DNA from: Actinoallomurus spadix
Lineage (GTDB): Bacteria; Actinomycetota; Actinomycetes; Streptosporangiales; Streptosporangiaceae
NCBI RefSeq assembly: GCF_024055725.1
Contig: NZ_JAMXMX010000006.1
Coordinates: forward strand, 1-64,000
Reading direction: 5' to 3'
DNA: 64,000 bases
How positions within the stretch are numbered: the first letter of the stretch is position 1; each line of letters opens with the position of its first letter. Below the pieces are notes generated by a model. That model searched no databases and was not told the origin of the DNA. It worked only from the letters and a program-made list of their open reading frames with translations. A program made the translations under genes and the position numbers. Positions 52,853 through 60,696 of this stretch are shown piece by piece.

Positions 52853-53803
52853 TCAGATCGACGTGAGCACCCGGATGCGGTCGGCGATGGCGCGCCGGGC
52901 GACGTCGGACTCGAAGGCGATCGAGTCGAACTCGTGCGGGGCACCGGGGTGCAGGTGGAACTCCACCGGCACACCGGCGCGGCTGAGCTTCATCGCGTAG
53001 GCGAGGTCCTCGTCGCGGAAGACGTCGAGCTGGCCGACCTCGATGTAGGCCGGTGGCAGGCCGGTCGCGTCCTCGAGCCGGGCCGGAGCCGCCGTGGCCG
53101 GGACGTCGGGCCCGCCGGCGGCCTCGCCGAGCAGTGCCGGCCACGCGGTGAGGCTGTCGTCGTACGACCACAGCACGTAGGGCGCGATGTGGGGGTCCGG
53201 CGTGGTGGTGCGGTCGTCGAGCATCGGCATGAGCAGGATCTGACGGGCGATCTTCGGGCCTCCGCGCTCGCGCGTGAGGATCGTCAGCGCCGCCGCCATG
53301 CCGCCGCCGGCGCTGTCGCCCATCACGCCGATCCGGTCGGGGTCGACGCCCAGCTCGGAGGCGTGCTCGTGCAGCCAGCGCAGCGCGGCGTAGGCGTCCT
53401 CGAGCGGGGTCGGGAAGGGGTGCTCGGGCGCACGGCGGTACTCGACCGACAGCATCGGCACGCCGCTGGCGGACACGTAGCGGGAGACCGGCCCGTCGAA
53501 GAGGTCGATGCGGCCGAAGATGTACCCCCCTCCGTGGAAGAAGAGCACGGCCGGGCCCGGCGTCGCGCCGTCCTTGACGTACCAGCGCATCCTGATCTGC
53601 GCGCCGTCGTCCGCGGTCGCGTGGTGCTCGCTGGTCGTCACGTCGGCCGGAATCGGCTGGGCGGTGCCCGCGGCGCCGATGATCGGCTCCCAGAGGGCGC
53701 GGCGCGCGGCGACATCGCCCACCGCCGGAGGGGTGGCGTCCGCCATCGCGCCGGCCATCGGGGCCAGTGCCTCGGCGATCTCGGGGTCCAGGTTCAGCGA
53801 CAT
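52853..53803 (-). CDS. HSL-family alpha/beta hydrolase (carboxylesterase)
   Basis: 316 residues. HGGGYIFG oxyanion motif, GDSAGGG nucleophile Ser, catalytic Asp in GQLDVFRDE and His in PGAPHEFD. Hydrolyses short-chain esters by family. ATG with GAAGG; lies 47 nt after the oxidoreductase gene, so both are probably read from the MarR-box promoter at 54851-54879. Confidence 0.9.
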   Translation of the reverse strand: MSLNLDPEIAEALAPMAGAMADATPPAVGDVAARRALWEPIIGAAGTAQPIPADVTTSEHHATADDGAQIRMRWYVKDGATPGPAVLFFHGGGYIFGRIDLFDGPVSRYVSASGVPMLSVEYRRAPEHPFPTPLEDAYAALRWLHEHASELGVDPDRIGVMGDSAGGGMAAALTILTRERGGPKIARQILLMPMLDDRTTTPDPHIAPYVLWSYDDSLTAWPALLGEAAGGPDVPATAAPARLEDATGLPPAYIEVGQLDVFRDEDLAYAMKLSRAGVPVEFHLHPGAPHEFDSIAFESDVARRAIADRIRVLTSI

Positions 53804-53850: not shown

Positions 53851-54792
53851 TCAGGCGCCGGGGAGGACGATGACCTTGCCGGAGATCGCGCCGGTGGCGG
53901 CTCGGGCGTGGAGGGCCGGCAGCTCGGCCAGCGGTACCCGCTCGGCGACGTCGACGCGCAGCTCACCGCGGTCGATCTGTGCCACCATCTGCGACAGCTG
54001 TTCGGCGTCGCTGCGGACGAACAGGTCGACGCCGCGTACGCCGCGCTCCTCGTCCGAAGGCGCGGGCATCCATACCGTGGTGTTCACGAGGGCACCGCCC
54101 GGGCGGATCAGGCCGACCAGCGCGGCCAGCTGCGCCGGGTCGACCGGCGCGAGGTTGAGGGCCAGGTCCACCGGCTCGGTGACCGCCGCGGTCACCTCGG
54201 TGGTGGTGTGGTCGATGACCTCGTCGGCGCCCGAGGCCCTGACGCGCTCACCGCTGCGGGGGCCGGCCGTGGCGATCACGTACGCACCGGCGTTCTTGGC
54301 CAGTTGCACGGCGTAGCCGCCGACCGCTCCGCCCGCGCCGTTGATCAGCACGCGTTGTCCGGCCGTCAGCGTGCCGTGGTCGAAGAGCGCCTGCCACGCG
54401 GTGAGGCCCACCAGCGGCAGCGCGGCGGCGTCCGCCAGCGGGACGCTCTTGGGTGCCGGCGTGAGGATCTCGGCCGGCGCGAGGACGTATTCCGCCGAGG
54501 CGCCGGTCCCCGTCATCGGCAGGAAGCCGATGACCTCGTCACCGACCGCGATGCCGTCCACACCGTCGCCCAGCGCGTCGACCGTGCCGGAGACGTCGAG
54601 GCCGGGCGTGTGCGGCAGCGTCACCGGGATGGGGCCCTGCATGAAGCCGGCGCGGATGTTGCCGTCGACCGAGTTGAACGATGTCGCGGCGACGCGGATC
54701 CGGACCTCGCCGGCTCCGGGGACGGGCTGCTCCGCGTCCTCGTAGCGCAGGACGCCGGGGTCGCCGTACTCGTGGAAACGCACTGCCTTCAT
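53851..54792 (-). CDS. NADPH:quinone oxidoreductase-type MDR protein
   Basis: 313 residues, zinc-free medium-chain reductase: GDPGVLRYEDAEQPVPGAGEV start, PHTPGLDVSG, cofactor fold INGAGGAVGGYAVQLAK. Reduces quinones or enals with NADPH; often part of electrophile detoxification. Its promoter carries two MarR-type palindromes. Confidence 0.9.
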   Translation of the reverse strand: MKAVRFHEYGDPGVLRYEDAEQPVPGAGEVRIRVAATSFNSVDGNIRAGFMQGPIPVTLPHTPGLDVSGTVDALGDGVDGIAVGDEVIGFLPMTGTGASAEYVLAPAEILTPAPKSVPLADAAALPLVGLTAWQALFDHGTLTAGQRVLINGAGGAVGGYAVQLAKNAGAYVIATAGPRSGERVRASGADEVIDHTTTEVTAAVTEPVDLALNLAPVDPAQLAALVGLIRPGGALVNTTVWMPAPSDEERGVRGVDLFVRSDAEQLSQMVAQIDRGELRVDVAERVPLAELPALHARAATGAISGKVIVLPGA

Positions 54793-54821: not shown

Positions 54822-54841
54822 TTGCTTCGAACTTGAAGCAA
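54822..54841. promoter_or_regulatory. MarR-type operator, downstream half of the pair
   Basis: TTGCTTCGAACTTGAAGCAA: 7-nt arms TTGCTTC/GAAGCAA are perfect. It follows the -10 and covers the presumed transcription start of the oxidoreductase gene. Same arms as the sites at 54861 and 58859. Confidence 0.75.
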
Positions 54842-54850
54842 CCGTGGATG

Positions 54851-54879
54851 ACACTACACCTGCTTCAAATTCGAAGCAA
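54851..54879 (-). promoter_or_regulatory. Promoter of the oxidoreductase-hydrolase operon
   Basis: On the minus strand TTGCTT (complement of 54874-54879) and TAGTGT (complement of 54851-54856) are separated by exactly 17 bp, a good actinobacterial sigma-70-type pair. The second MarR-type palindrome overlaps the -35 and fills most of the spacer. Confidence 0.7.
54861..54878. promoter_or_regulatory. MarR-type operator, upstream half of the pair
   Basis: TGCTTCAAATTCGAAGCA: arms TGCTTC/GAAGCA. Centre is 38 bp from that of the other site. Lies within the -35/-10 interval, so binding should block RNA polymerase. Confidence 0.75.
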
Positions 54880-54924
54880 GTGGCGTACGACACTCGATCC
54901 CGGGCCACCACGCCCTTCGCCGGA

Positions 54925-55488
54925 TCAGCCGGGGCGGCGCGAAGGGCCCACCGCCGCGACGAGCTCGGCGGCGGCCTGGTCGATGCGCTCGCGCAGTCGC
55001 CCCGAGCCGCCGTACGGCGAGCCCTCCCAGTCCTCCGGGCCGGCGACGACGACGGTGGGCACGGGCTCCGCGTGCAGGCAGGTGAGGCGGCCCCGCATTA
55101 CCTGGCCGAGGTCAGGTGGGCGCCGACGCGAGCCGCTGCTGGCCGCGAGCAGGACGGGCGTACCGGACAGGACATCCTCCTCGAGGACGTCGAAGAACGA
55201 TGCGAACACGGCGCTCGGGGAGGTGACGACCACCGGTGTCGCCACCACGAGCCCGTCGGCCACCGCCACCGCGGCGATCGCCTCCCGCAGGTCGAGGCTG
55301 GCGCCCTGGGTGGCGCACTGAGCGAGGTCGGCCGCCAGCCGGCACAGCTCCAGCACCTCCAGCTCGACCCTCACTCCACTGGCCGTGAGCGAGCCGCAGA
55401 CGGACCTCGTGATCTGGTCCGCGAGCAGGCGGGTGGGGCGCGGGTAACCGGCGCCGGCACTGACGACGGCCAGGGACACGGGGCTCAC
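54925..55488 (-). CDS. NADPH-dependent FMN reductase
   Basis: 187 residues of the flavodoxin-like reductase group (MsuE/CE1759-type): VVSAGAGYPRPTRLLADQIT at the N-terminus, ATPVVVTSPSAVFASFFDVL, and GSRRRPPDLGQ. Supplies reduced FMN to a monooxygenase in other clusters; none is next to it here. Runs 31 nt after the cupin gene, so the two are probably co-transcribed. Confidence 0.8.
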   Translation of the reverse strand: MSPVSLAVVSAGAGYPRPTRLLADQITRSVCGSLTASGVRVELEVLELCRLAADLAQCATQGASLDLREAIAAVAVADGLVVATPVVVTSPSAVFASFFDVLEEDVLSGTPVLLAASSGSRRRPPDLGQVMRGRLTCLHAEPVPTVVVAGPEDWEGSPYGGSGRLRERIDQAAAELVAAVGPSRRPG

Positions 55489-55519
55489 CGGTCCTCCCTA
55501 CAGCCGGGCCGTGATGCCG

Positions 55520-55987
55520 TCAGCGGGGAGGGCCGAGGACGACGTTGCCGGACAGTTCGGCGGCTTCGGCGAGCAGCTCCATCGAGATCTCGAAGCCCTC
55601 CGGGCGCGGCTCGCGCAGGTCGCGGCCCGCGTGGCGGAACATCTTCTCCAGCCCGGCCGGGGTCGCCATGAGCAGCAGGTCGGCCTTCTCGGAGGTGATG
55701 CGGTAGCCGTGCGGGATGCCCCGGGGCAGGAAGACGATGCCGCCCTCCCGCAGCTCGTGCTCCTCGTCGCCGACCCACACCAGCGCCGAGCCGGAGATGA
55801 GCAGGAAGACCTCGTCCTCCTTCTTGTGCATGTGGAACGGCGGCGCCTCTCCCTTACTGACGTCGAAGCGTCCGACGGTCAGCCGCCCATCGGTCGCCTC
55901 GGCGTCGAGCAGGACGCTGAAGGTGCTTCCGGCGATCCACTCGAGCTGCTGCTGGTCCTCTCGCTGGGCGAGGTAGGGGATGCTCAT
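55520..55987 (-). CDS. Cupin-domain protein
   Basis: 155 residues, single cupin: PPFHMHKKEDEVF (metal-type His pair, Glu) and LPRGIPHGYRI in the second motif. Metal-binding is likely; function (dioxygenase, isomerase or sensor) not defined. ATG with GAGGAC upstream. Divergent from the ATPase-HTH regulator. Confidence 0.85.
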   Translation of the reverse strand: MSIPYLAQREDQQQLEWIAGSTFSVLLDAEATDGRLTVGRFDVSKGEAPPFHMHKKEDEVFLLISGSALVWVGDEEHELREGGIVFLPRGIPHGYRITSEKADLLLMATPAGLEKMFRHAGRDLREPRPEGFEISMELLAEAAELSGNVVLGPPR

Positions 55988-56175
55988 GGTCGGTCCTCGA
56001 TGCCCGTGGACGGCGGCGCCGTCCTCCTACCAGCGATCCTGCGCCGTACCGCTGCCCGTTCTCCACGCCCGCCGGTGCTCACCCGGGCCCAGCGCTGCTC
56101 ACGCCGAGGCGCTCGCCCATCTATCTGGCGGACACCTCGACACGGCAGGATGGGCCACGGCGGGAGGAGCTTTGC

Positions 56176-58245
56176 GTGGGTTTGACGGGATTGGCGGGCA
56201 GGCTGGCCGCGGCACGAGCCGATGCGCTGGTCGGCAGGGAGCCGGAGCGGAAGGTGCTCGACCGGATGCTGTCGGGAGCGGCGGACGCTCCGCTCGTGGC
56301 ATACGTCCATGGTCCCGGTGGCATCGGCAAGTCCTCGCTGTTGCGCTACGCAGGCCGCCAGGCGGAGCTCGCCGGCCGCGGTGTGGTGCACATCGACGCG
56401 CGGTTCCTCGACGTGGATCCGCGTCGTCTCGAGGAGGCCGCGGCCCTGGCGTGCTCCGAGCCCGGCACCGTCCTGCTCCTCGACACCTTCGAGCGCTGCC
56501 AGCCGCTCGAGCCGTGGCTGCGCGACACCTTCCTGCTCCGGCTCGCGGAGGACGCCCTCGTCGTGGTCGCGAGCAGAGTCGCCCCGGACGTCGAGTGGTC
56601 ACTGGATCCAGGCTGGGCGCAGCTCTTCGCCGAACTGGCCGTACGACCGCTCGACGCCGCCCAGTCCGACGCCCTGCTCGCCGCGCGCGGCGTCCCCGCC
56701 GAGCAGCGCAGCCCCTTCATCGCCTTCGCCGGGGGCAGCCCCCTCGCCCTCTCGCTCGCCGCCTCCCTGCCCGCCGCGGCGCCGGGCGCGCCGTGGGAGC
56801 CCACCGGCGACGTGCTGACGACCCTGGTCGAGCGGCTGGTGGGCGACCTGCCGAGCGCCGCGCACCGACGCGCCCTCGAGGTCGTCGCGCAGGCCTACGT
56901 CACGCGCGAACCGCTGCTGCGCGCGGTGCTGGGTGACGAGGACACCGCGACGGTGTTCTCCTGGCTGCGTCAGCTGCCCTACGTCGAGGCCACGCCCGAA
57001 GGGCTGCATCCGCACGACGCGGTGCGGGCGACGCTCGAGGCCGACCTGCGCTGGCGGGATCCCGAGCGCTACGACGACGTACGCGCCCGCGTCTCGACCG
57101 CGGGCCTGCAGGCGGTGCGCGGCGCCTCCGAGGACGACGCCCCGCTGCGCGTCGCGGAGTGGATGTTCCTCTTCCGCGACCAGGACGGCATGGACGACCT
57201 GCATGACTGGCAGGCGCACCCCCACGTCGAGGACGCTCCCCTCCGGCCCGCCGACGTGCCCGAGGTGCTGCGCATGGCGGAGGAGGCGGAGGGCCGCGAG
57301 TCCGCCGCCACGGTCGCGTACTGGGTGCGCCGCCGTCCGGAGGCCTTCCGTGTCCACCGCTACGCGGGCTCCTCCGCGCCCGTCGCGTTCATGGCCATCC
57401 TGCGGCTGGAGGCACCGCTGCCCGAGGACCGGGCCGGGGATCCGGTGATCGCGGCGCTCTGGGACCATGTAGAGGCGACCGCCCCCTTGCGGGAGGGCGA
57501 GCACCTGGGCGTCCGCCGTTTCGCGATGCAGCCCGGCTGGCACCAGCGACCCTCGCCCCTCATGGACCTCATGAGCCGGCGCGCCATCGCGGACGAGATG
57601 AGGGCCCGCGGGCGCGCGCTGACCTTCACCGTCTTCGAGGACACCGACCGGTGGAAGGGCTATCTCGCCAAGGCCGGGATGCTGGAGGTCACGGCCGTGG
57701 ACGTCGGAGGGCGGGTACAGCACCTCTTCGGCAGGGACTGGCGGCGGCAGTCGGTGGACCAGTGGGTGGAGGACAGGGCCCGCGCCGTGGCCGTGCCCGT
57801 GGCCGGGGAGACCGGTTCTCCGTCCGCCGCCGGCTCGGACGACGAGCGCGGCGGCGACCTGCCGCGCGCCGCGTTCGAGGAGGGCGTGCTCGAGGCGCTG
57901 CGGACGTGGCGCGCTCCCCGGGAGTTCGCCACCAGCGTCCTGCTGCACTCGCGCCTCGTGCCGCGGGGTTCCGCCGACCCCGTGGCGGACCTGCGCGGCG
58001 CGATCACGACCGCCCTCGACGCGCTGCAGGTCGACCCCGCGGGCGTGAAGGCGCACGACGCGCTCACCGCCACGTACATCGCGGCCTCGCGCACCCACAA
58101 GGCCGCCGCTCGACGGCTGGGGGTGCCGTACGGCACCTACCGGCGCCATCTCACCCTGGCCAAGGAGCGGCTCATCGAACAGCTGCTGCGGCAGGCGGCC
58201 ACGGCGCCCGTGCCGTCCCCGCCGCGCTCGTCACCGGAGGGGTGA
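56176..58245 (+). CDS. Large ATPase-regulator with C-terminal HTH
   Basis: 689 residues. N-terminal P-loop GPGGIGKSS (residues 46-54) and LLLDTFERC Walker B, a STAND/AAA-type signalling ATPase; a middle region (about 350-545) of unclear fold; then an HTH near the C-terminus with ASRTHKAAARRLGVPYGTYRRHL, a Fis/sigma-like recognition helix. GTG 56176 with GGAGGAG 7 nt upstream. Divergent from cupin-FMN reductase, which are its probable targets. Ligand unknown; resembles other actinobacterial ATPase-regulators only in outline. Confidence 0.8.
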   Translation: MGLTGLAGRLAAARADALVGREPERKVLDRMLSGAADAPLVAYVHGPGGIGKSSLLRYAGRQAELAGRGVVHIDARFLDVDPRRLEEAAALACSEPGTVLLLDTFERCQPLEPWLRDTFLLRLAEDALVVVASRVAPDVEWSLDPGWAQLFAELAVRPLDAAQSDALLAARGVPAEQRSPFIAFAGGSPLALSLAASLPAAAPGAPWEPTGDVLTTLVERLVGDLPSAAHRRALEVVAQAYVTREPLLRAVLGDEDTATVFSWLRQLPYVEATPEGLHPHDAVRATLEADLRWRDPERYDDVRARVSTAGLQAVRGASEDDAPLRVAEWMFLFRDQDGMDDLHDWQAHPHVEDAPLRPADVPEVLRMAEEAEGRESAATVAYWVRRRPEAFRVHRYAGSSAPVAFMAILRLEAPLPEDRAGDPVIAALWDHVEATAPLREGEHLGVRRFAMQPGWHQRPSPLMDLMSRRAIADEMRARGRALTFTVFEDTDRWKGYLAKAGMLEVTAVDVGGRVQHLFGRDWRRQSVDQWVEDRARAVAVPVAGETGSPSAAGSDDERGGDLPRAAFEEGVLEALRTWRAPREFATSVLLHSRLVPRGSADPVADLRGAITTALDALQVDPAGVKAHDALTATYIAASRTHKAAARRLGVPYGTYRRHLTLAKERLIEQLLRQAATAPVPSPPRSSPEG

Positions 58246-58339
58246 GGTCGCGGACCGCGGACACGACCTTGGCGGCGCCCGGCCCGGTCCGCCGCGCACC
58301 CGCTGCGGCCGGCCGTCCGGCGCGAGCCGGGCTACGTCG

Positions 58340-58843
58340 TCACGCTCCGCCTTTGCGGCGGCGAGGCGCGGCCGAGCGAGGCGGTGTGGCGCGCATGTGG
58401 TCGCGTACCGGCGCCAGCAGGCCGGCGAGGGCCTTCACGTCATCGCGCGAGAGCGGCTCGAAGAGCAGGCCGCGGACGACCTCGATATGACCGGGCAGCA
58501 CCTTCGCGAGCAGCGCGCGTCCGGCGTCGGTGATGGTGACCGTGATGCTCCGCTCGTCGTCCGGAGAGGGAGCGCGCACGACCAGGCCCGCCTTCTCCAG
58601 CAGACCCGCCTGGTAGGTCAGACCGCTGCGGCTGTAGACGACGCCGTCGGCCAGGTCGGTCATGCGGTGGCTGCCCGTCGGGGAGTCTCCGAGCCGGGCC
58701 AGCAGCTGGAACTGCACATAGCTGAGATCACCGGCCTCGCGCAGCTGTTGCTCGACCGCGTGCCGGAGCAGGCTGGTCACCTCGATGAGGTCGAAGTAGG
58801 CGCCGAGCTGCACGGGGTCGAGCGACGGCGGTGAATCAGGCAT
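58340..58843 (-). CDS. MarR-family repressor
   Basis: 167 residues with the winged helix of MarR (DLSYVQFQLLARLGDSP, then TDLADGVVYSRSGLTYQAGLLEKAGLV, wing SPDDERSITVTIT). ATG preceded by TAGACT 6 nt away, without a ribosome site, so leaderless. The perfect palindrome CTTCGAATTCGAAG (58859-58872) lies 3 nt beyond that -10. Likely represses itself and the oxidoreductase operon at 54.8 kb. Confidence 0.9.
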   Translation of the reverse strand: MPDSPPSLDPVQLGAYFDLIEVTSLLRHAVEQQLREAGDLSYVQFQLLARLGDSPTGSHRMTDLADGVVYSRSGLTYQAGLLEKAGLVVRAPSPDDERSITVTITDAGRALLAKVLPGHIEVVRGLLFEPLSRDDVKALAGLLAPVRDHMRATPPRSAAPRRRKGGA

Positions 58844-58849
58844 GACCGG

Positions 58850-58855
58850 AGTCTA
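58850..58855 (-). promoter_or_regulatory. -10 of the marR gene
   Basis: TAGACT on the minus strand, 6 nt before the ATG at 58843; the operator begins 3 nt further upstream, in the -35/-10 spacer. Confidence 0.6.
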
Positions 58856-58858
58856 CTG

Positions 58859-58872
58859 CTTCGAATTCGAAG
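58859..58872. promoter_or_regulatory. MarR-type operator at marR
   Basis: CTTCGAATTCGAAG, a perfect 14-bp palindrome, extended by TG on the left. Shares GCTTC...GAAG arms with both sites at 54.8 kb. Confidence 0.78.
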
Positions 58873-58987
58873 GGCATGGCACGACGCTGCCGTGGTGATC
58901 GTGTTGCCGTCGTCCGCGCGACCGGCGCGTCATCGCGAGAAGGCCACCGTCGGCACCGGAACTCGGCGCCGACGGTGTTCCCTCCGG

Positions 58988-59752
58988 TCACTTCCCGTGC
59001 GGGTCGGAGGCGTTGACGGTGGCGACGACCTGGTCGTACTCCCCGCGGGCCTCGGCGTAGCGCAGGAACTTGACCCGCTCGACCTGGATCTCCTTCGCGT
59101 CCGGCCGGGTCTCGAACAGCTCCATGACCTCCGCGACGTATTCGTCGAGCGGCATGGCGAACTCGCTCTCCTCCTGTCCGGGCAGCAGCGACGTGCGGAC
59201 CGCCGGCGGCTCGAGCTCCACGATCTTCACGTTCGTGTCGGCGAGCTGCAGCCGGATCGACTCGCTCAGCATGTGGATGGCGGCCTTCGACGCGTTGTAG
59301 CTCGGCGTGACCTTGAGCGGTATGAACGCCAGGCCCGAGGAGACGGTGACGATCGTGGCGTCCGGCTGCGCCCGCAGGTGCTCGATGAACGCGGCGATGA
59401 GCCGGATCGGGCCGAGCACGTTGGTCGTCACGATGGACTCGGCCGAGGCCAGGAACGACTCGGGCCGGTGCCAGTCCTCGACGCGCATGATGCCGGCCAT
59501 CGTGATCAGGACGTTGAGGTCCGGGTGCCTGGCCAGGACCTGCTTGGCGGCGGCCTCGATGCTCGCGGCGTCCGCCGTGTCGATCTGCACGGTGTCGATG
59601 CCGGGATGCTCGGCGGCGATCTGGTCGAGGAGTTCCGTACGGCGGCCGCCGACGATCACGGTGTTGCCCTTGGCCTGAAGTTCCAGGGCGAGAGCAAGGC
59701 CGATGCCGCTGGTGGAGCCGGGGATGAAGATGGTGTTTCCGGTGATGTCCAT
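58988..59752 (-). CDS. SDR family oxidoreductase
   Basis: 254 residues. Cofactor motif GSTSGIG near residue 12, AGIM, catalytic Ser in VSSGLAF, YNASK. ATG at 59752 opens the domain. Resembles DltE-like uncharacterised SDRs. Divergent from the XRE regulator with a palindrome between. Confidence 0.88.
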   Translation of the reverse strand: MDITGNTIFIPGSTSGIGLALALELQAKGNTVIVGGRRTELLDQIAAEHPGIDTVQIDTADAASIEAAAKQVLARHPDLNVLITMAGIMRVEDWHRPESFLASAESIVTTNVLGPIRLIAAFIEHLRAQPDATIVTVSSGLAFIPLKVTPSYNASKAAIHMLSESIRLQLADTNVKIVELEPPAVRTSLLPGQEESEFAMPLDEYVAEVMELFETRPDAKEIQVERVKFLRYAEARGEYDQVVATVNASDPHGK

Positions 59753-59802
59753 GGCTTCAGCCTCGCCCATCGCCCCGCGGAGGTGCAGAGACCGCTCATC
59801 GG

Positions 59803-59817
59803 GGGATCGGCGATCCC
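59803..59817. promoter_or_regulatory. Palindrome between the SDR and XRE regulator genes
   Basis: GGGATCG-G-CGATCCC, perfect with a one-base centre. It lies just upstream of the presumed -35 of the regulator (AATAAT -10 at 59841-59846, 7 nt before its ATG) and 50 bp before the SDR start, so is placed to control both. Confidence 0.55.
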
Positions 59818-59853
59818 TGGTTCGCCGGGGGCGTGGGCCGAATAATTGAACGC

Positions 59854-60696
59854 ATGGATCGTGCAGCACTCGCGGACTTCCTGCGGCGCCGCCGCGACGC
59901 CCTGCGGCCCGGGGACGTCGGGCTCCCCGAGGGCACGCGCCGCCGGGCCCCGGGCCTGCGGCGGGAGGAGGTCGCGGCCCTCGCCGTGATGTCGACCGAC
60001 TATTACACGCGGCTGGAGCAGCAACGCGGTCCGCAGCCGAGCGAGCAGATGCTCGCGTCGCTCGCCCGGGCGCTACGGCTGACGAGCGACGAACGCGACT
60101 ATCTCTTCCAGGTGGCGGGGCAGAACCCGCCGGCCGCGATGTCGGCCGCGACGCATGTCGCGCCCGCGCTGCTGAGAGTGCTGGACCGCCTCTCCGACAC
60201 CCCGGCGCTCATCCTGTCGAACCTGGGCGAGACGCTCGTGCAGAACCGGATGGCCGAGGCGCTGTTCGGCGACAGATCGGGCTACACGGGCCTCGCCCGC
60301 AGCGAGACCTATCGGTGGTTCACCGATCCCGCGGAGCGGCTGCACTACCCCGAAGACGACCGTGACCGGCAGAGCCGCGCCCACGTCGCGAACCTGCGCG
60401 CGGCGTACGGCTCGATGGGCCCGCACTCACCCGCGGGCGACCTCGTACGGGCGCTGCAGAAGGAGAGCACGGAGTTCGCCGAACTCTGGGAGCGGCACGA
60501 GGTGGCCAAGCGCTTCGAGGATCACAAGACGCTCATCCATCCCGAGCTCGGCGAGATCGAGGTGGACTGCCAAGTGCTGTTCACCGAGGATCAGTCGCAG
60601 GCGCTGCTCGTGCTCACCGCCGCCCCGAACACCGAGGGGTATGAGAAGCTGCGGCTCCTCGGGGTGCTGGGGCACCACCGCTTCGCCGAGACCTGA
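59854..60696 (+). CDS. XRE-type regulator with MmyB-like ligand domain
   Basis: 280 residues. N-terminal HTH_XRE (RRAPGLRREEVAALAVMSTDYYTRLEQQR) and a C-terminal MmyB-like region (about 105-275) with LSDTPALILSNLGETLVQNRMAEALFGD. Family members typically control a divergent SDR or oxidoreductase gene, as here. ATG 59854; AATAAT lies 7 nt before it with no ribosome site. Confidence 0.9.
   Translation: MDRAALADFLRRRRDALRPGDVGLPEGTRRRAPGLRREEVAALAVMSTDYYTRLEQQRGPQPSEQMLASLARALRLTSDERDYLFQVAGQNPPAAMSAATHVAPALLRVLDRLSDTPALILSNLGETLVQNRMAEALFGDRSGYTGLARSETYRWFTDPAERLHYPEDDRDRQSRAHVANLRAAYGSMGPHSPAGDLVRALQKESTEFAELWERHEVAKRFEDHKTLIHPELGEIEVDCQVLFTEDQSQALLVLTAAPNTEGYEKLRLLGVLGHHRFAET

Follow-up and report, generated by a model that had tools for sequence, protein, structure and literature searches.

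The 64,000-nt stretch of Actinoallomurus spadix DNA analyzed in this study (contig NZ_JAMXMX010000006.1, positions 1 to 64,000; hereafter, the window) carries on its minus strand the gene marR (58340-58843), encoding a MarR-family repressor of 167 aa (Pfam MarR_2, E 3.4e-11). At a distance of 3.5 kb, on the same strand, lies a gene (53851-54792) for a 313-aa enzyme of the medium-chain dehydrogenase/reductase (MDR) or quinone-oxidoreductase-like type, with ADH_N and ADH_zinc_N_2 domains, followed after 47 nt by a gene encoding an alpha/beta hydrolase of the hormone-sensitive-lipase type (52853-53803, minus strand; Abhydrolase_3, E 4.7e-59). One palindromic motif is present at marR and twice at the promoter of the oxidoreductase operon, and these three palindromes very probably serve as operators of the nearby MarR, both for its own gene and for the operon. 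An earlier note, made from the letters of the window, had assigned the sites to MarR in this way, and comparative genomics lends strong support to the assignment through a conserved pair of sites, the site at marR, a motif-first scan, and genomes in which regulator and target are unlinked.

The MarR protein matched the Pfam families PF12802 (43.6 bits, cut-off 27) and PF01047 (33.1 bits, cut-off 24.6), and its AlphaFold model had a predicted local distance difference test score (pLDDT) of 88.1. A fold search with this model returned the SCO3205-DNA complex (3zpl) as the best match (E 4.2e-12), followed by AbsC (3zmd). No cysteine is found in the protein or in 33 of 35 aligned MarR sequences, the other two having one each, which makes a thiol switch unlikely; the OhrR or thiol-switch class of MarR proteins, defined by a redox-active cysteine, was rejected for the window protein, which has none.

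The nearest solved sequence to the oxidoreductase was 5a3j, a chloroplast quinone-oxidoreductase homologue (E 5e-38). Enzymes like this homologue prefer enones. Assignment to the PIG3-type quinone oxidoreductases (TIGR02824) was tried and rejected, with a score of 151.3 bits against a cut-off of 296.8, and the enzyme is described here as MDR- or quinone-oxidoreductase-like, not as a PIG3 member.

Palindromic sites and promoter elements

The putative operator O1, at marR, occupies positions 58858-58873 (16-mer GCTTCGAATTCGAAGG), with the palindrome CTTCGAATTCGAAG at 58859-58872. Upstream of the oxidoreductase gene, the distal site O2 (54862-54877; 16-mer GCTTCAAATTCGAAGC; palindrome TGCTTCAAATTCGAAGCA at 54861-54878) lies over the -35 element and spacer of the promoter, and the proximal site O3 (54824-54839; 16-mer GCTTCGAACTTGAAGC; palindrome TTGCTTCGAACTTGAAGCAA at 54822-54841) begins a few bases downstream of the predicted transcription start, with 38 bp between the centres of the two. 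The sites, to which no strand is assigned, represent one 16-bp motif, GCTTCRAATTYGAAGC, with at most one mismatch in each. Direct reading confirmed all three palindrome positions given in the earlier note, but not the variable centre of five or six nucleotides described there, as both promoter sites read GCTTC-N6-GAAGC.

On the minus strand, the oxidoreductase promoter consists of the -35 element TTGCTT (54874-54879), which coincides with the left arm of O2, and the -10 element TAGTGT (54851-54856), located between O2 and O3, with a spacer of 17 nt. Both this promoter and the placement of one site over its -35 element and spacer had been proposed before and were found as described. In the marR promoter, the palindrome is followed by CAG, the -10 element TAGACT (58850-58855, minus strand), 6 nt, and the ATG at 58843, in agreement with the 3-nt gap between palindrome and -10 element reported earlier. 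Since the -10 element ends 6 nt before the ATG, the marR transcript is probably leaderless.

The 16-mer consensus at up to one mismatch matched the window three times, whereas 100 dinucleotide shuffles averaged 0.00 matches. The arms-only form, GCTTC-N6-GAAGC, gave five matches at the same tolerance against 2.04 expected, a number reached in 3 of 100 shuffles, and is weak evidence by itself. Throughout the 8.0-Mb genome, O1, O2, and O3 were the only sites with up to one mismatch; four more were found with two mismatches and 28 with three, and the reversed 16-mer pattern gave 14 sites in total at up to three mismatches. Twelve of the 32 further genomic sites (2-3 mismatches) were examined (L008-L019), and 11 of these lie inside open frames of at least 240 nt, a test that discriminates poorly because O1, O2, and O3 are also inside such frames. 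We claim no further regulon promoter, and none is excluded by the open-frame test. In the window genome, the regulon looks limited to the promoters of marR and the oxidoreductase gene.

Conservation of the sites with regulator and target

A scan of the GTDB species genomes with MarR identified 283 relatives; the 80 best loci were kept, with 76-96% identity and a range from Streptomyces to Solirubrobacter. The layout of regulator, target, and sites is thus shared by many soil actinobacteria. A relative of the oxidoreductase (at least 58% identity) was found in 71 of these 80 loci. The count of paired sites leaves out 11 loci, namely nine without an oxidoreductase match and two at contig ends, one lacking the gene start (L088) and the other the upstream region (L087). 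In all of the resulting 70 sequences (69 loci and the window), the oxidoreductase gene is preceded by two sites with up to two mismatches each and a spacing of 35-39 bp; order-1 Markov shuffles yielded such a pair in 0 of 14,000 cases. The spacing was 38 bp in 50 sequences, 37 bp in 11, 36 bp in six, 39 bp in two, and 35 bp in one, although two of the six 36-bp values (L044 and L045) reflect pairing with the marR site by the script, the true oxidoreductase pair being 38 bp apart.

Upstream of marR, 72 of 77 sequences, taken from 76 loci and the window, contain a site with up to three mismatches, and in 60 of these the distance from the start of the site to the ATG is exactly 30 nt; four loci whose match does not begin at residue 1 (L076, L081, L096, and L097) were left out. 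Among 33 non-redundant marR upstreams in the same register, every column of CTTCGAATTCGAAGCAGTAnnnT carried 1.2-2 bits and most columns of the 30 nt upstream less than 0.5, a contrast that arises partly by construction because the flanks were the basis of the non-redundancy filters and only one register is represented in the marR set. The unfiltered counts of 70/70 and 72/77 are independent of the filter. Promoter elements were also retained: the T, A, and final T of the marR -10 element are invariant in 33 non-redundant upstreams, as are TTGCTT and TAnnnT in 27 non-redundant oxidoreductase upstreams with the 38-bp spacing.

The layout of the genes was divergent in 62 of the 80 loci, co-directional with the oxidoreductase gene downstream in seven, and different from both in two, the other nine having no oxidoreductase match. 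Among the neighbour genes tested, none accompanies the oxidoreductase gene in most loci, and the hydrolase gene follows it directly in 26 of the 67 loci with room for it. The comparison strongly supports the oxidoreductase as the core target, with the hydrolase as a likely accessory member of the operon. In Actinoallomurus soli (G004, L155:7674-8825), an open reading frame downstream of the oxidoreductase gene, in the place of the hydrolase gene, resembles an aldo/keto reductase by eye.

In the motif-first scan, the spaced pair (38 bp, up to three mismatches in total) was detected in 5 of the 394 genomes examined from the class, including the window genome, and the reversed control in 0 of 394. 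MarR (E up to 1e-35) is encoded by 27 of the 394 genomes, among them all five with the pair, and in each of these five the pair adjoins an oxidoreductase gene. Of 27 diverged MarR loci from the same genome sample (47-93% identity, window excluded), 15 have a pair spaced by 32-39 bp at up to two mismatches and 21 at up to three, compared with none of the 27 for the reversed consensus. Four genomes of the window's genus without MarR, one of which has a 35% relative only, contained no pair at 38 or 37 bp, and none of five oxidoreductase paralogues of this genus (50-52% identical; G001, G003, and G004) was accompanied by a site.

For the eleven loci without a usable oxidoreductase upstream, we also searched the ten source genomes; five of these contained the 38-bp pair, always before an oxidoreductase gene. 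Two of the genomes were rejected as unlinked cases, the pair of S. diastatochromogenes being the one already counted in L025 and the gene of A. rifamycinica being cut by a contig end. Five unlinked genomes encode one close MarR each (88-95%), and in all five the pair precedes the best oxidoreductase match. The oxidoreductase gene and marR occupy different contigs in Actinoallomurus soli, Actinophytocola xanthii, K. persicum, and U. beigongshangensis; in L. albida they share a contig but are separated by 190 kb. The spacing of the unlinked pair is 38 bp in Actinoallomurus soli, L. albida, and Actinophytocola xanthii, and 34 bp in K. persicum and U. beigongshangensis, where it stands before an oxidoreductase of 58-65% identity. 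A search with the 37-bp pattern in nine genomes gave no match; the 34-bp pairs in two of the nine emerged from reading the oxidoreductase upstreams. Actinophytocola xanthii carries its complete marR on a separate contig (L072) and, adjacent to the oxidoreductase gene, a marR remnant (L137:1168-1314) that matches residues 1-25 and 135-163 but lacks the part between them; a site is still present there at 1330.

Several observations weigh against the assignment of the sites to MarR. Five of the 77 marR upstreams and, even at up to three mismatches, 6 of the 27 diverged loci lack the expected site or pair, and the 69 loci are not independent events, because they were found through MarR and many are close relatives. 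The separation of regulator and target in Actinophytocola xanthii is partly historical, since the marR remnant still lies beside the oxidoreductase gene. Streptomyces scabichelini encodes MarR and an 81% oxidoreductase (L145) preceded by one degraded site instead of a pair; a linked oxidoreductase gene may be missing from this assembly, because both marR copies are near contig ends. These two copies (L024 and L026) have sites of their own, and no oxidoreductase other than L145 was matched in this genome at E up to 1e-60. Kineococcus vitellinus lacks a site both at marR and at its full-length oxidoreductase gene, the copy beside marR being cut. S. cellulosae encodes MarR, but an oxidoreductase was not matched there at E up to 1e-60.

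At third positions, nine of ten relatives had an identity of 0.76-0.84 to marR of the window, the tenth (L086) being misaligned by a length difference and dropped, and this measure appears uninformative on horizontal spread of the gene. With regard to plasmids, one Streptomyces mirabilis record of 1.03 Mb encodes MarR at 94%.

Putative switch and competing explanations

The switch is best modelled as a MarR repressor that lacks cysteine, senses a ligand, and controls its own gene together with the oxidoreductase operon as a local regulon. A MarR dimer would bind GCTTCRAATTYGAAGC, and at O1 it would repress its own gene, because this site directly precedes the -10 element of a promoter that is probably leaderless. 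Two dimers at O2 and O3 would bracket the operon promoter and could block both binding and escape of the polymerase, as O2 overlaps the -35 element and spacer and O3 starts a few bases beyond the predicted transcription start. A small molecule may bind in the aromatic/His pocket of MarR and release the protein from its sites with no cysteine switch, whereupon the oxidoreductase, together with the hydrolase in the window, would be made and would remove the compound. By class, the ligand is most likely an alpha,beta-unsaturated carbonyl, a quinone, or a phenolic compound, since the constant target is an MDR oxidoreductase and the layout resembles that of MhqR; the chance that it is an enone or a quinone may be taken as about even.

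The ligand might also be an ordinary pathway metabolite, such as a phenolic acid or an acyl-CoA, with the oxidoreductase and hydrolase forming a catabolic pair, a possibility that has a considerable chance, if one below even. Within the accessible text of the sources, AbsC binds salicylate, the Trp/His pair of its pocket is common to SCO3205 (PMC3737563), and CouR senses p-coumaroyl-CoA (PMC4737184). The inconstancy of the hydrolase across loci agrees with such a role, but the constant target is a reductase of the quinone/enone type, which no tested neighbour gene accompanies in most loci.

It is unlikely that MarR acts at the oxidoreductase promoter as an activator or dual regulator. Activators do exist in the MarR family, and RrpA is presented, in the portion of its source that was accessible, as regulating a quinone reductase gene positively. 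However, O2 and O3 are in polymerase-blocking positions, and the promoter has a recognisable -35 and -10 element of its own.

The genes upstream of the oxidoreductase promoter encode an NADPH-dependent FMN reductase (54925-55488, minus strand; FMN_red, E 6.2e-15) and a cupin protein (55520-55987, minus strand; Cupin_2, E 5e-15). No further site with up to three mismatches was found near either gene in the whole-genome scan, and we claim neither as a target. The cupin gene is divergent from marR in several relatives, but not in the window. Next to marR, positions 56176-58245 encode a protein of 689 aa with an AAA-ATPase start (AAA_16 just under the cut-off) and a weak sigma-region-4-like match near its end, for which no NCBIfam model matched at E up to 0.001. 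The unit formed by marR and this gene is oriented as in Amycolatopsis bartoniae (L023) but reversed relative to Saccharothrix and Kibdelosporangium (L028 and L032), and this difference among relatives points to an inversion between the cupin gene and marR (55520-58873). Additionally, genes for a short-chain dehydrogenase and an MmyB-like XRE regulator, divergently arranged (58988-60696), are also found near the module in L023 and L065 (79-80% identity).

The sites could belong to another of these neighbourhood regulators, either the AAA-ATPase/helix-turn-helix-like protein (56176-58245) or the XRE-type protein (59833-60696), which we consider very improbable. A relative of the former (at least 55% identity) occurs in 23 of the 71 loci with an oxidoreductase match, but none was found within the DNA fetched for the remaining 48, and many of those 48 retain the sites, whereas MarR is the constant partner. 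Relatives of the XRE-type protein (at least 60% identity) were found in 2 of the 71 loci. Furthermore, the motif-first scan recovered MarR in 5/5 genomes, and a site at marR itself is typical of autoregulation. That the palindromes are chance or structural repeats with no regulatory role would fit the arms-only motif, whose frequency in the window is close to chance, but is hardly conceivable given the full motif (3 matches against 0.00 expected) and the spaced pair kept in 70/70 sequences.

Comparison with known regulators

An autoregulating MarR repressor beside a detoxifying enzyme is a well-known kind of system. In sequence and conservation, the three sites agree with the MarR-family pattern of pseudo-palindromic operators of 16-20 bp in front of both the regulator gene and its target. 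Among the matches listed in our search of the open-access literature, we found no description of the window MarR or of its bracketing operator pair. Our analysis links a conserved MarR regulator (the best 80 of 283 relatives, 76-96% identity) to a DNA motif, a regulon of two promoters, and an enzyme target that can be tested, and the clean operator and small regulon suggest a candidate electrophile biosensor. Quinone oxidoreductases are also regulated by QorR and YodB, of the DUF24/HxlR type. These proteins represent a different winged-helix family with thiol sensing, whereas the window protein matches Pfam MarR and contains no cysteine.

The MhqR proteins of Bacillus subtilis and Staphylococcus aureus, the closest analogues of the putative switch, are MarR-type quinone repressors that act without a thiol mechanism, according to the accessible text of PMC6798810, and the window MarR is likewise cysteine-free. 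The MhqR operator is reported there as a 9-9 palindrome, TATCTCGAA-ATCGAAATA, the central 12 bp of which match TTCGAATTCGAA of the window MarR family at 10 of 12 positions by eye, while the outer arms differ. Targets of MhqR include a carboxylesterase-type hydrolase and, in B. subtilis, an azoreductase (PMC6798810, PMC12893000), and the window operon also contains a hydrolase gene. The MhqR operon of S. aureus combines a ring-cleavage dioxygenase with a hydrolase, and no MDR oxidoreductase is named in the accessible portions of the same two papers, unlike in the window, where the target is such an enzyme. One inverted repeat is reported for the MhqR promoter, in the part of the source available, compared with two sites at the oxidoreductase promoter of the window. 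MhqR is a protein of Firmicutes and the window MarR is actinobacterial. The MhqR structure 9qdr was the 13th-listed phmmer match of the window MarR (E 3.4e-6) and ranked 12 in the fold search, with 21% identity over the aligned fold, and identification of the window MarR as MhqR by sequence was rejected on the basis of this rank and identity. The quinone pocket of MhqR is described as F11/F39/E43/H111, of which H111 is common to MhqR and AbsC; our pocket comparison of the window MarR aligned His119 alone, to AbsC and SCO3205. The system may tentatively be regarded, with a chance slightly under even, as an actinobacterial counterpart of MhqR with cysteine-free enone or quinone sensing and a bracketing operator pair, mostly 38 bp apart, that is kept when regulator and target separate.

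SCO3205 and AbsC of Streptomyces coelicolor are the nearest solved structures by both sequence and fold, with approximately 30% identity to the window MarR, and the authors of PMC3737563 assign no function to SCO3205 in the accessible text. As described in that text, which also underlies the SCO3205 and AbsC residues below, the SCO3205 operator has the same 12-bp frame with TT...AA ends, but its consensus is TTnAAnnnTCAA, compared with TTCRAATTYGAA for the window MarR. The base-reading residues Arg72 and Ser73 of SCO3205 are both conserved in the window MarR and invariant in the 35 aligned MarR sequences. The ligand-pocket residue His119 of AbsC and SCO3205 is also kept in the window MarR and invariant in the alignment, whereas Trp16 of these proteins is replaced by Tyr16, which is nearly invariant. 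His77 of SCO3205 contacts G8 (PMC3737563), but the window MarR has Tyr77 and its operator has C in the place of G8. Residue 77 is Tyr in more than 90% of the aligned sequences and His in two of them (L124 and L130). A link between residue 77 and specificity at operator position 8 is only a lead, because L124 and L130 have His77 and the operators of L130 keep C. The comparison with SCO3205, His77/G8 against Tyr77/C8, would provide a direct test of how MarR proteins choose their operators.

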